The notes under the pieces are model-generated. The model saw only the letters and a list, made by a program, of their open reading frames with translations. It did no database searches and was not told the DNA's origin. From Acidobacteriota bacterium (GTDB lineage: Bacteria; Actinomycetota; Acidimicrobiia; Acidimicrobiales; Palsa-688): a stretch of 64,000 nt of DNA. How positions within the stretch are numbered: the first letter of the stretch is position 1; each line of letters opens with the position of its first letter. The translations under genes were made by a program, and so were the position numbers. Location: the NCBI GenBank assembly GCA_028876385.1, contig JAGWSF010000060.1, positions 1 to 64,000 of the forward strand, written 5' to 3'. Shown here piece after piece: positions 1 through 4,254 of this stretch.

Positions 1-2277
1 CCGGTGAGCTTCATGCGCGGCGCCGACGCCTCGGCCGGCACCATCAAGAGCGGGGGCAAGACCCGCCGGGCGGCCAAGATGGTCATCCTCGACGTGGACC
101 ATCCCGACATCGAGGACTTCGTGTGGTGCAAGGCCATCGAGGAGCGCAAGGCCCGGGCTCTGCGCGACGCCGGCTTCGACATGGACCTCGACGGCAAGGA
201 CAGCTACTCGATCCAGTACCAGAACGCCAACAACTCGGTGCGGGTCACCGACGAGTTCATGCAGGCCGTGCTCGACGACGCCGACTGGCACCTGCGAGCG
301 ATCACCACCGGTGACGTCGTGCAGACGGTGCGCGCCCGAGACCTGTTCCGCCAGATCGCCAAGGCGGCCTGGGAGTGCGCCGACCCGGGGATGCAGTTCG
401 ACACGACCATCAATCGGTGGCACACCGCCCCCAACGCCGGGCGGATCAACGGCAGCAACCCGTGCAGCGAATACATGCACATCGACAATTCGGCCTGCAA
501 CCTGGCCAGCCTCAACCTCCTCACCTTCCTCGAGGAGGATGGAGACTTCGACGTCGCCGGCTTCAAGGCGGCCACGGCGTGCGTGTTCACCGCCCAGGAG
601 ATCATCGTCGGCAACGCCGACTATCCCACCGAGGCCATCGCCGAGAACTCCCGCCGCTTCCGCCAGCTCGGCATCGGCTACGCCAACCTCGGAGCGCTGC
701 TCATGGCCGAGGGACTGCCCTACGACTCCGAGGGCGGCCGGGCCTGGGCGGCGGCCATCACGGCCCTGCTCACCGGGCACTCCTATGCCACCTCGGCCCG
801 CACGGCCTCCCGGATGGGTCCCTTCGCCGGGTACCAGGCCAACCGGGACGCCATGTTGTCGGTGCTGCGCATGCACCGCGACGCGGCGGCGCACATCGAC
901 GAGGACCTGGTGCCGCCGGAGATCCTCTCGGCGGCCCAGGAGGCGTGGGACTCGGCGGTGGAGATCGCCGAGCAGCACGGGGTGCGCAACAGCCAGGCCA
1001 GCGTCCTGGCCCCCACGGGCACCATCGGTCTCCTGATGGACTGTGACACCACGGGAATCGAGCCCGACCTGGGTCTGGTCAAGATGAAGAAGCTGGTCGG
1101 TGGCGGCACCATGTCGATCGTCAACCAGACGATTCCCCGGGCCCTGCGCCGTCTCGGCTACCGAACCGATCAGATCGACGACATCGTGGCCTACATCGAC
1201 GAGCACAAGTCGATCGTGGGGGCCCCTCACCTGTCGGGCGAGCACCTGCCCGTCTTCGCCTGCTCCATGGGGGACAACACGATCCACTACCGCGGCCACA
1301 TCACCATGATGAGTGCCGTCCAGCCCTTCATCAGCGGGGCCATCTCCAAGACCGTCAACGTGCCCGAGGAGGTGACCGTCGAGGACGTCGAGCAGCTGCA
1401 CATCGAAGCGTGGCAGCTCGGTCTCAAGGCCGTCGCCATCTACCGGGACAACTGCAAGGTGGCCCAGCCGCTGGCCACGGCCAAGAAGACCGTCCAGGAC
1501 CCCACGGCCTCACCGGCGGAGATCCACGACGCCGAGTTGGCCCTGAAGGTGGCCGAGCTGGAGCGGGCCTTGGAGCGCCAGACGACGGTGGTCGTGAAGC
1601 AGCCCATCCGCGAGCGCCTGCCCCGCAGGCGCAAGTCGGCCACGTTCGCCTTCCGGGTGGCTGACTGCGAGGGCTACGTGACCGTCGGCGAGTACGACGA
1701 CGGGCGGCCGGGTGAGGTCTTCATGAAGGTCTCCAAGCAGGGTTCGACCCTGGCCGGCATCATGGACGCTTTCGCCATCGCCGTCAGCCTCGGTCTCCAG
1801 CACGGGGTGCCGCTGGCCACCTACGTGCGCAAGTACACCAACATGCGCTTCGAGCCGGCCGGCATGACCGACGACCCCGACCTGCGCATCGCCCAGTCGC
1901 TGGTCGACTACATCTTCCGCCGGTTGGCGGTCGACTACCTGCCCTACGAGGACCGGGTGGAGCTCGGAGTGCTCACCTCCCAGGAGCGCACCCAGATGAC
2001 CCTGCCCGGCATGGAGGAGGCGGTCACCCGCAACGCCCCCCTCGACGCCGGCCCGGTCATCGAGGCCGAGACCACGGATGCCCTGGGTGAGGCCACTTCG
2101 GCGGTGCCGAGGGGGCTGGCCGATTCGGCCGTCTCCGAGGAGCCGACCGTGGTGGAGCTGCGTCAGTCCCGAATCGAATCCGATGCGCCCTACTGCTTCC
2201 AGTGCGGGGTCCAGATGCAGCGGGCCGGAAGCTGCCACGCCTGCCCGTCGTGCGGCACGACCAGCGGCTGTTCATGA
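1..2277 (+). CDS. nrdJ: Adenosylcobalamin-dependent ribonucleotide reductase, C-terminal part (5' truncated by window)
   Basis: Class II ribonucleotide reductase, which reduces ribonucleotides to deoxyribonucleotides with a B12-generated thiyl radical. The frame is open from base 1, so the N-terminus lies outside the window. The visible part has the SNPCSE active-site motif (Cys codon 463-465), an APTGTIGLLMDCDTTGIEPD segment typical of NrdJ, and a C-terminal Cys-rich tail (CFQCG, then CPSCG, ending TTSGCS) that matches the usual NrdJ end. The C-terminus therefore looks intact. The long insert of about 120 residues after the barrel and the TSCPD-like domain (around 1640-1950) are normal for actinobacterial NrdJ. 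No second RNR subunit is nearby. Confidence 0.95.
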   Translation, partial: PVSFMRGADASAGTIKSGGKTRRAAKMVILDVDHPDIEDFVWCKAIEERKARALRDAGFDMDLDGKDSYSIQYQNANNSVRVTDEFMQAVLDDADWHLRAITTGDVVQTVRARDLFRQIAKAAWECADPGMQFDTTINRWHTAPNAGRINGSNPCSEYMHIDNSACNLASLNLLTFLEEDGDFDVAGFKAATACVFTAQEIIVGNADYPTEAIAENSRRFRQLGIGYANLGALLMAEGLPYDSEGGRAWAAAITALLTGHSYATSARTASRMGPFAGYQANRDAMLSVLRMHRDAAAHIDEDLVPPEILSAAQEAWDSAVEIAEQHGVRNSQASVLAPTGTIGLLMDCDTTGIEPDLGLVKMKKLVGGGTMSIVNQTIPRALRRLGYRTDQIDDIVAYIDEHKSIVGAPHLSGEHLPVFACSMGDNTIHYRGHITMMSAVQPFISGAISKTVNVPEEVTVEDVEQLHIEAWQLGLKAVAIYRDNCKVAQPLATAKKTVQDPTASPAEIHDAELALKVAELERALERQTTVVVKQPIRERLPRRRKSATFAFRVADCEGYVTVGEYDDGRPGEVFMKVSKQGSTLAGIMDAFAIAVSLGLQHGVPLATYVRKYTNMRFEPAGMTDDPDLRIAQSLVDYIFRRLAVDYLPYEDRVELGVLTSQERTQMTLPGMEEAVTRNAPLDAGPVIEAETTDALGEATSAVPRGLADSAVSEEPTVVELRQSRIESDAPYCFQCGVQMQRAGSCHACPSCGTTSGCS

Positions 2278-2278
2278 T

Positions 2279-2341
2279 GTGATCAGCTACACCAACCAGT
2301 ACGTCCTGGCGGCGGACAAGATCCTCGGCTACAGCAGCTGA
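2279..2341 (+). CDS. Possible 20-residue micro-ORF directly after nrdJ
   Basis: A GTG one base after the nrdJ stop opens a 20-codon frame ending in TGA. All 20 sense codons end in G or C, although the peptide is rich in Asn, Lys, Tyr, Ile and Ser, which need A/T at positions 1 and 2. That is the signature of coding sequence in this genome rather than of GC-rich spacer. There is no Shine-Dalgarno, so translation would depend on termination-reinitiation from nrdJ. The peptide resembles nothing I recognise. It may instead be the remnant 3' end of a lost gene. Confidence 0.3.
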   Translation: MISYTNQYVLAADKILGYSS

Positions 2342-2362
2342 ACCCGAGGTTCGCCCCTGACG

Positions 2363-2399
2363 GAGGCGGAGTGGTGGGAAGTTACCGCCGCTCCGCCTC
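2363..2399. terminator. Hairpin downstream of nrdJ
   Basis: GAGGCGGAG at 2363-2371 pairs perfectly with CTCCGCCTC at 2391-2399 (9-bp stem, 19-base loop). There is no U-tract. It lies between the convergent nrdJ and arsR genes and could end or stabilise either transcript. Confidence 0.45.
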
Positions 2400-2433
2400 G
2401 TGGTGGGGTCCCACCCCGCCGGAGGCCGCCATT

Positions 2434-2516
2434 CTGTGAACCGGACTGCTCGACTGTGCACCGAAAGTGCTGCTATTCCGCAGTTTCAGTGCACAGATGC
2501 GAGCGTCAGTTCACAG
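2434..2516. repeat. Nested, symmetric inverted repeat between nrdJ and arsR
   Basis: The outer arms CTGTGAAC (2434-2441) and GTTCACAG (2509-2516) are perfect inverted repeats. The inner arms CTGTGCAC (2454-2461) and GTGCACAG (2489-2496) are too, and extend inward through GAAA/TTTC with one mismatch. Exactly 12 bases separate outer from inner arm on both sides, and those spacers are partly complementary. The whole is an 83-base imperfect palindrome centred near 2475. Its function is unknown: a bidirectional terminator, a four-half-site operator, or a small mobile hairpin are all possible. Confidence 0.6.
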
Positions 2517-2582
2517 TTGTGACCACTGTGGGGGTGTCGCACCCCTCTCGGTGTCCAGCGGACCGGTTGGAAGGGGTCCGGG

Positions 2583-2948
2583 TCAGGCCTCGATGGCCGC
2601 TTTCAGAGCGGTCAGGCGATCCCGGTCGAGCGAGTACCACACCCACTTCCCACGCCTGTCACCGTGGACCAGACCGGCCTCACCCAGAACCTTGAGGTGG
2701 TGTGAGATGGTGCCCTGGGTCTTGCCCAGCGGCCCGACGAAGTCACATACGCAGATCTCACCTGAAGGGGCGGCGGCCAGCATCGACAGGACCCTCAGGC
2801 GCACGGGGTCGCCAAGAGCGTGAAAGCCCCGGGCCAGGCTGTCGGCGTCGCCCGCAGCCAGGGGAGCGGCCAACACCGAGGCGCAGCACTCGGTCCCATC
2901 GGTCACGACGTCGGCTGCAGATCTCTGGGCCAAGATGCAATCTCCCAT
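2583..2948 (-). CDS. arsR: ArsR/SmtB-family arsenic-responsive repressor
   Basis: A small winged-helix repressor of about 121 residues. It contains the As(III)-sensing ICVCDF motif of the ArsR group (the family form is ELCVCDL), followed by the recognition helix GTISHHLKVLGEAGLV and a C-terminal wing (KWVWYSL). It is divergent from arsI and presumably represses both directions from the shared 67-bp region. I chose the ATG at 2948 because the frame further upstream runs into the operator repeats. ATGs at 2966 and 2984 are alternatives. Extra cysteines near the N-terminus (DC at residues 3-4, CC further on) could add metal ligands. Confidence 0.9.
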   Translation of the reverse strand: MGDCILAQRSAADVVTDGTECCASVLAAPLAAGDADSLARGFHALGDPVRLRVLSMLAAAPSGEICVCDFVGPLGKTQGTISHHLKVLGEAGLVHGDRRGKWVWYSLDRDRLTALKAAIEA

Positions 2949-3015
2949 TGACAATCGTGATTGCATCGATAATGATCGACGCATCGATACTCGTTGATGA
3001 TAGCAGGAGGTAGCG
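2949..3015. promoter_or_regulatory. arsR-arsI intergenic operator/promoter region
   Basis: The divergent spacer is AT-rich for this genome and has two direct copies of GCATCGATA (2963-2971 and 2981-2989) at 18-base spacing. Each contains the palindrome ATCGAT, and related ATGATCGA/TTGATGAT half-sites lie around them. Repeated short AT-rich dyads between divergent ars genes are typical ArsR binding sites. The arsI Shine-Dalgarno (AGGAGG) follows at about 3004-3009. Confidence 0.65.
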
Positions 3016-3486
3016 ATGTCCCGGGCGCAGCTGGCCCTCAACGTGGCTGATATGGACGCCGCCGTCGAGTTCTACTCGAAGCTGTTCAACGCCGAGCCGG
3101 CCAAGCGCCGACCCGGTTACGCCAACTTCGCCATTGTCGACCCCCCCCTCAAGCTGGTCCTGATCGGGAGCGAGGATGGGCGGGGCCGGGGGGTGGTCGG
3201 GGCGCTCAACCATCTTGGCATCGAGGTCGAGACCCCCGAAGAGGTCAAGGCGGCGATCTCGAGGCTGTCGGATCATGGCCTAACCCCTGTGGTCGAGGAG
3301 TCGACCACGTGTTGCTACGCCCTGCAGGACAAGGCGTGGGTGGACGACCCCGACGGCGCCCCGTGGGAGGTCTACACCGTACTGGCCGACGCCCCGCTCG
3401 AGGAGGAACTGGGCTGCGCCGGCCCGGTCTGCACCCCCGATCCGGTCGCGGTAGAGCTCGGTGGCCCGGGCGGCCACTGCTGCTGA
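3016..3486 (+). CDS. arsI: ArsI-type C-As lyase (VOC-fold organoarsenical demethylase; CadI-like)
   Basis: A 156-residue glyoxalase/bleomycin-resistance-fold protein. It carries the vicinal cysteine pair in TTCCYALQDKAWVDDPDG (Cys99-Cys100) that binds trivalent organoarsenicals in ArsI. Gln5, His66 and Glu118 (in PWEVY) are the likely Fe(II) ligands by analogy with characterised ArsI. The enzyme splits the C-As bond of methylarsenite. Closely similar proteins are annotated CadI (cadmium-induced), so the substrate is inferred from family and from the arsR/arsC neighbours. The C-terminus has extra cysteines (GCAGPVC and a terminal HCC) that might help metalloid capture. A strong AGGAGG precedes the ATG. 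Confidence 0.88.
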   Translation: MSRAQLALNVADMDAAVEFYSKLFNAEPAKRRPGYANFAIVDPPLKLVLIGSEDGRGRGVVGALNHLGIEVETPEEVKAAISRLSDHGLTPVVEESTTCCYALQDKAWVDDPDGAPWEVYTVLADAPLEEELGCAGPVCTPDPVAVELGGPGGHCC

Positions 3487-3501: not shown

Positions 3502-4254
3502 GTGTCGGAAACCTCGCTTGGCCGGCGTTTGCTGGCCGAATGGCTCGGGAGCGCGGCGTTGGCCGCGCTGGTCGTCGGCTCGGGGATAGCCGCTCAGCAG
3601 CTCACACCCGGTGACGTGGGCCTGGAATTGCTCTACAACGCCGCGGCGACGGCCGCCGGCTTGTTTGCGCTCATCTTGATGTTCGGGCCGGTCTCGGGCG
3701 CCCACTTCAACCCGGTCGTCTCGTTCGTCGACGCGGCCTTCGGTGGAATGAAGTGGCGCGACGCCGCCGCCTACGTTCCCGCTCAGGTGGGTGGGTGTAT
3801 CAGCGGGGCCATCCTGGCCAACGTCATGTTCTCCCGAGCGGCCGTCAGCATCTCCACCCACCACCGGGCCACGGGGGCCCATTTCGTGTCAGAGATCGTG
3901 GCCACGTCTGGTCTGCTGCTGGTCATCTTCGCCCTGGCCCGTACCGGTCGGGGGGCCACCGCTCCTGCCGCCGTCGGTGCCTACATCGGTGCCGCCTACT
4001 GGTTCACGAGTTCGACCAGCTTCGCCAACCCGGCGATCACGGTGGGCCGGATGTTCTCCGACAGCTTCGCCGGTATCGCCCCGTCGTCGGCGCCGGCATT
4101 CATTGCGGCGCAACTCCTCGGCGCGGCCGTGGGCTACGCCCTCATCAGGATTCTGTACCCGGCCATCACTCCCACCGAGGCCTCCGAGGTGGTCATGCCC
4201 CACCTGCCCGCAGCCGAAGACGTGGCCGGCCGCTCCCTGCCCACCGGTCCGTGA
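3502..4254 (+). CDS. MIP/aquaporin-family channel of the arsenic cassette
   Basis: A 250-residue six-helix major intrinsic protein. The first half-helix motif is GAHFNPVV (residues 67-73), so NPV replaces the usual NPA. The second is SFANPAITVGR (NPA at 176-178, with the following conserved Arg). It sits between arsI and arsC, 15 bp after arsI. In rhizobial ars operons an aquaglyceroporin (AqpS) lets As(III) leave down its gradient after arsenate reduction, and no ArsB or Acr3 pump is visible here, so the same role is inferred. The start is the GTG at 3502. The stop codon abuts a block of 11-bp repeats. Confidence 0.85.
   Translation: MSETSLGRRLLAEWLGSAALAALVVGSGIAAQQLTPGDVGLELLYNAAATAAGLFALILMFGPVSGAHFNPVVSFVDAAFGGMKWRDAAAYVPAQVGGCISGAILANVMFSRAAVSISTHHRATGAHFVSEIVATSGLLLVIFALARTGRGATAPAAVGAYIGAAYWFTSSTSFANPAITVGRMFSDSFAGIAPSSAPAFIAAQLLGAAVGYALIRILYPAITPTEASEVVMPHLPAAEDVAGRSLPTGP

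Follow-up and report, generated by a model that had tools for sequence, protein, structure and literature searches.

MITEs and the ends of IS elements are short, palindromic and intergenic, with a patchy distribution. In REPtrons and TIRtrons, a RAYT or TIRYT gene is flanked by palindromes, solo copies of which are dispersed, according to the sections of the account consulted (PMC3733652). Inverted repeats are found at type IV toxin-antitoxin operators: as described in part of a second source (PMC7319586), AbiEi binds two 23-bp inverted repeats lying 3 bp apart, and Rv2827c binds four. The element described here is an 83-bp nested palindrome at positions 2434–2516 (+ strand) of the window, the whole 64-kb stretch of DNA that was analysed, and is a solo member of a dispersed palindrome family.

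The element starts ~156 bp past the stop codon of nrdJ, the 3′ part of which occupies positions 1–2277 on the + strand (stop 2275–2277), and lies ahead of a convergent gene for an ArsR-type regulator (2583–2957, − strand; Pfam HTH_5, E 1.1e-13). The name nrdJ comes from the first-pass annotation, and orthologues are found in three other genomes (G001, G002 and G003). Two pairs of arms are nested just as that annotation had laid them out, with 12-base spacers on either side of a 27-base centre. The left half of the element consists of the outer half-site CTGTGAAC (2434–2441, + strand), a spacer (2442–2453) that starts with the final C of a 9-bp arm, CTGTGAACC, and the inner half-site CTGTGCAC (2454–2461, + strand). 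The right half comprises the inner half-site GTGCACAG (2489–2496, − strand), a second spacer (2497–2508) and the outer half-site GTTCACAG (2509–2516, − strand). In the centre (2462–2488, + strand), GAAAGTG at 2463–2469 stands opposite CAGTTTC at 2481–2487, and this AAAGTG/AAACTG asymmetry is found again across the palindrome family. With 54 positions, the 83-bp self-reverse-complement score at 2434–2516 is the top of the window (runners-up, 48). It is the arrangement that is unusual, as CTGTGNAC by itself is ordinary in the window (8 observed versus 7.66 expected). An integron attC site was rejected because its R box, GTTRRRY, does not fit GTTCACA.

A genome-wide search for the dyad, which the first-pass annotation had proposed, revealed dispersed copies and hence a repeat family. 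BLAST with the element located five copies in the window's genome (G000), all of which are intergenic: the copies in the window and on contigs C31, C127 and C144 are intact over 83 bp, and that on C53 is degenerate. The element at 2434–2516 is not a private nrdJ/arsR site. The sister species (G002) has one copy at each of the five corresponding places (C17, C22, C30, C61, which is the one downstream of nrdJ, and C80), and its C80 copy shares its sigma-factor and pyrH neighbours with the C53 copy of G000. Searching for the half-site with up to two mismatches returned nine matches in G000, none of them outside the five loci, seven in G002 and none in G001, a genome that also lacks any copy of the element despite an nrdJ that is 91% identical. 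At the orthologous sites of G000 and G002 the arms are retained while much of the flanking DNA has diverged. The nrdJ copy is the exception: in G002 its outer arms, including the outer right half-site, have been lost, with 8 of 18 positions retained, so the window site is not strongly constrained.

The seven good copies from the two genomes (leaving out the degenerate C53 and C80 and the decayed C61) form a gapless alignment of 83 columns, and the spacing is constant to the base. Among the four intact G000 copies, identity is 93% in the outer arms (100/108), 83% in the inner arms (90/108), 66% in the centre (99/150) and 27%, or chance level, in the N11 spacers (36/132), such that both spacers keep their length as their sequence drifts. 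Fixed spacing, free spacer sequence and little pairing between spacers together point to protein half-sites on duplex DNA rather than an RNA hairpin. Judged from these alignments, four protein half-sites on duplex DNA would fit better than one continuous RNA hairpin as the feature under selection.

A 43-bp core of the element, with a 16-11-16 layout, recurs beyond G000 and G002. The strict core pattern was found in 4 of 198 related genomes, compared with no match to a reversed control pattern in the same 198. A looser pattern returned 26 stretches from genomes of named species. Many of these are probably chance matches and several are true extended palindromes; three contigs (L078, L093 and L094) carry another copy in tandem, likewise with an N11 centre, though the pattern did not require one. 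In a set of 26 aligned cores the two arms change together across lineages, with 65 double-sided changes where shuffles give 25.7; columns 18/34 are unpaired in 16 of these 26 sequences. Because this set was partly chosen by pattern, the invariant letters of the core carry a bias, which affects the variable letters less. Of 395 genomes from the class, 27 have matches to a covariance model of the core. In G000 the centre of the core comprises 11 mostly unpaired bases, the palindromes of the bracketed units described below being near-perfect instead. One genome with palindromes, G010 (68% complete), has no DUF559 match. Tandem arrangements were also seen elsewhere: a Bacteroidales contig (L078) has a tandem pair of palindromes with this geometry (3617–3712) just ahead of a short, apparently truncated ATPase_2 reading frame (3752–4111), and at L200 and L201 (G210:C195 and C250) the palindromes occur as 62-bp tandem pairs.

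In some genomes, two matches to the covariance model lie ~1.2 kb apart. In G291, G414 and G417, such a pair encloses a gene for a DUF559 nuclease domain, mostly with a recognisable AbiEi-like N-terminus. Among 30 DUF559 loci from 20 genomes, 8 are bracketed by one palindrome present twice, ~1 kb apart, a fraction that is not a neutral rate because these genomes were mostly picked for carrying palindromes. In a phylum-wide DUF559 sample drawn without regard to palindromes, 5 of 29 loci are bracketed (the thirtieth, L320, begins at a contig end and was excluded), two of them weakly (L316 and L317, with identities of 0.70 and 0.69 between the two copies). Bracketing at L212 and L223 is additional: L212/L254 were recognised by eye beneath the cut-off of the script, and L223 and L186, found via the palindrome, stand outside both counts. 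Control loci encoding DUF4143 were bracketed in 0 of 30 cases. A DUF4143 ATPase as the partner of the palindrome, an idea taken from L078, was discarded, since a regular expression likewise located this palindrome at 0 of the 30 loci. Four DUF4143 loci (L128, L130, L131 and L136) have in common a short hairpin ~580 bp before the domain match, for example GTGGCTAATTCAAAA, that is unrelated to the window family.

The bracketing palindromes are ~41–59 bp long, with arms of ~19–25 bp and short centres. The 5′ palindrome usually ends 15–60 bp ahead of the start codon, and the 3′ palindrome usually begins within ~20 bp of the stop codon. Most of them do not share the sequence of the window's family, and each bracketed gene therefore seems to have a palindrome of its own. 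The background is low: ~190 kb of G000 and G002 contains no hairpin of at least 17 pairs, and 1.2 Mb of G255 contains nine of at least 16 pairs. At a looser cut-off, hairpins were found 5′ of 14, 3′ of 14 and on both sides of 8 of 30 DUF559 genes; at 52 control reading frames the corresponding numbers were 13, 6 and 2, a smaller contrast. Short stand-alone DUF559 proteins have no palindrome pair, and G000 has a second DUF559 gene, on C81, that lacks a palindrome altogether. On C31 of G000, the AbiEi-DUF559 fusion gene begins ~60 bp after the 83-bp copy, so that this copy, and not the one in the window, has the location of an AbiEi-gene promoter element; here and at the fusion gene of G002, the element is present on one side only. 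Two other arrangements were observed. In G436:C1 (L186), near-identical 55-bp palindromes at 2019–2073 and 3225–3279 surround a gene for an HTH-nucleotidyltransferase (PF01909/PF18765), and at L297 two parS-like GTTTCACGTGAAAC motifs (1874–1920) sit right behind a short DUF559 gene. A search by topic of the open-licence literature found no description of DUF559 or AbiEi genes set between palindromes.

AbiEi models are matched by ~170 residues at the N-terminus of the four scanned fusion proteins (best E values of 9e-18 to 1e-29). Pfam reports AbiEi_4 together with DUF559 or MTES_1575, AbiEi_4 being unreported in 2 of 10 proteins, and NCBIfam gave no useful name. The columns of the C31 protein corresponding to Gly168, Gly171, Glu194, Asp224, Glu234, His241 and Asp250 are invariant in all 17 aligned sequences, which fits a predicted intact nuclease site.

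The G417 unit sits between two convergent genes that we take, from their sequence, to be of the HAD and OmpR types. In G255, from the same genus, the ends of these two genes are about a dozen bases apart, and both the palindromes and the enclosed gene are absent. As judged from these two sequences, this site shows a whole unit gained or lost once, with no clear target duplication at the missing-unit site. G255 likewise lacks, at the corresponding gene end, a solo palindrome that G417 carries (L208); this case was kept out of the gain and loss count because its left neighbour differs. The other seven G417 queries had no matching tile in G255. Units with matching flanks are present in both G045 and G098 (L250/L264 and L251/L263), and where one palindrome arm differs between them, the opposite arm has changed with it, so that symmetry is kept or restored over time. 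This comparison suggests that the units shared by these two genomes are stable.

The sequences show a palindrome family with spacing fixed to the base, genes bracketed by palindromes, invariant residues in the nuclease and one site that is free of the unit. We favour, with a probability of roughly 0.55, a reading of the window element as one solo copy of a palindrome that is dispersed and specific to its lineage, acts at the DNA level as a putative AbiEi-type binding site and is tied to palindrome-gene-palindrome units. An AbiEi-type winged-helix protein, as two or four monomers, would bind the inverted and tandem half-sites; in G000 the likely partner is the C31 AbiEi-DUF559 fusion protein, which has an 83-bp copy directly upstream of its gene. 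In relatives, palindromes on both sides of the gene would make a ~1-kb unit that comes and goes as a whole. We infer that the fusion protein binds the palindrome, cuts DNA and moves the unit. Solo palindromes, that of the window included, would be dispersed or leftover unit ends, comparable to the REPs of REPtrons, and would arise through gene loss or through copying of the palindrome alone; a REPtron-like role fits the family best. Several observations count against this explanation: the window copy lies at two gene 3′ ends, away from any AbiEi gene, and the G436:C1 unit holds an HTH-nucleotidyltransferase instead of a fusion gene. To these are added the one-sided element at the fusion genes of G000 and G002, the decay of the outer arms near nrdJ in G002, the C81 gene without a palindrome, the palindromes of G010 without a DUF559 match, the mostly unpaired centre of the G000 core, and the hairpins that are fairly common near control reading frames at the looser cut-off. 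Among the first-pass suggestions, a small mobile hairpin came nearest, in that the element is dispersed and its family brackets mobile-looking genes. That of a four-half-site operator survives in its architecture, which suits a DNA-binding protein and resembles an AbiEi operator, but not as an operator of nrdJ or arsR, because the window copy lies between two convergent gene ends. A more specific proposal is considerably more tentative: the palindrome could have been left by a minimal mobile element of a class not yet described, made of one AbiEi-nuclease fusion gene between two copies of its own operator palindrome, in which the AbiEi domain would read the palindrome, the nuclease would drive spread or replacement of DNA flanked by palindromes, and solo palindromes would be left behind.

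The palindromes could instead be operators of a trans-acting regulon, in which a conserved DNA-binding protein would control several unlinked genes, each bracket being a promoter operator plus an immobile 3′ copy. The gapless, constrained half-sites at four loci agree with such a role, as does the location of three or more of the five G000 copies upstream of a gene and the usual placement of the 5′ palindrome of bracketed genes 15–60 bp before the start. This explanation is nonetheless unlikely, as the neighbouring genes have no evident common function, two genes converge on the window copy, and the close relative G001 has no copies; moreover, it leaves the identical palindromes at 3′ ends and the missing whole unit unexplained.

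A similarly doubtful alternative is that the element is a non-autonomous transposon remnant, either a MITE or joined IS ends, for which an ordinary transposase would be the mover and the AbiEi-nuclease genes cargo. The TG...CA ends and the slight asymmetry of AAAGTG versus AAACTG may resemble IS ends, the distribution is patchy (4 of 198 genomes by the strict pattern), and the HTH-nucleotidyltransferase would be a second type of cargo. However, no full-length element or IS with these ends is present in G000, G001 or G002, and in G000 and G002 the half-site pattern occurs only inside palindromes, leaving no candidate for a MITE parent there. No transposase was found between the palindrome pairs whose genes were scanned, and the missing-unit site of G255 has no clear target duplication.

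Folding of the element was compared with that of shuffled sequences, as the first-pass annotation had advised. Region 2434–2516 folds far better than its shuffles as RNA of either strand and as DNA of one strand, with z-scores of −5.8 (+ strand RNA), −8.0 (− strand RNA) and −4.6 (+ strand DNA), and 0 of 200 shuffles were equally stable in each case. The spacers, which had been called partly complementary, are so in the window copy but not in the family, where the N11 spacers are mostly unpaired, and pairing in the 83-column structure, assessed on seven full-length copies, does not exceed that of shuffles. A separate stem with 18-base arms follows nrdJ at 2363–2399; although it has no T-run, by position it is a better-placed terminator candidate than the nested palindrome. 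The earlier idea that the element is a structured RNA, or a terminator serving both nrdJ and arsR from between them, is very improbable, and an RNA terminator or riboswitch was set aside: the strong hairpins predicted on both strands and the location between convergent genes would suit it, but positions 2200–3100 contain no terminator-like site (a hairpin followed by a T-run), the element has no Rfam match, the spacers are unpaired across the family, other copies lie upstream of genes, and nrdJ is already trailed by the 2363–2399 hairpin.

Solitary DUF559 and AbiEi-like genes are present in many actinomycete genomes (43 of 149 in a phylum-wide sample), and DUF559 is still listed in Pfam as being of unknown function. 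A fixed layout of a gene within palindromes predicts the DNA site of the protein and sets the ends of the unit. The units thereby offer a test of whether the joining of an antitoxin fold and a nuclease can yield a mobile or homing-like element. The bracketed AbiEi-nuclease genes hint at a type of movable DNA unit not described before; if this is true, a REPtron-like arrangement would rest on another enzyme.

Like MITEs and IS ends, the window family is short, palindromic, intergenic and patchy; unlike them, it has no parent transposase that was found, and its arms are constrained while its spacers drift. With REPs and REPtrons, as portrayed in the consulted sections of PMC3733652, the family shares intergenic palindromes, a palindrome-bracketed gene, dispersed solo copies and one palindrome type per gene. 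It differs from them in having few copies per genome and longer palindromes (~41–59 bp, 83 in the window), and no GTAG or CGTC tag of the REP kind is common to the seven copies aligned with their flanks. The bracketed genes match AbiEi_4 and DUF559/MTES_1575 or NTP_transf_2, not a Y1/HUH transposase; the gene within the brackets is thus an AbiEi-DUF559 fusion in place of the Y1/HUH tyrosine transposase of a REPtron (PMC3733652, in the part consulted). Compared with the abiE operators of AbiEi and Rv2827c, to the extent covered by the consulted part of PMC7319586, the present palindromes differ in that they lie on both sides of the gene and are also scattered, that AbiEi is fused to a nuclease domain, and that a single fusion gene fills the bracketed ~1 kb. 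The paired inverted repeats of those operators are ~23 bp each, and the fusion proteins carry an AbiEi region of ~170 residues. The bracketing palindromes, with arms of ~19–25 bp, are near the AbiEi repeats in size, and the window element, with its 16-11-16 core plus outer half-sites, is nearer to the four-repeat case of Rv2827c, a likeness of geometry only (PMC7319586, same part).
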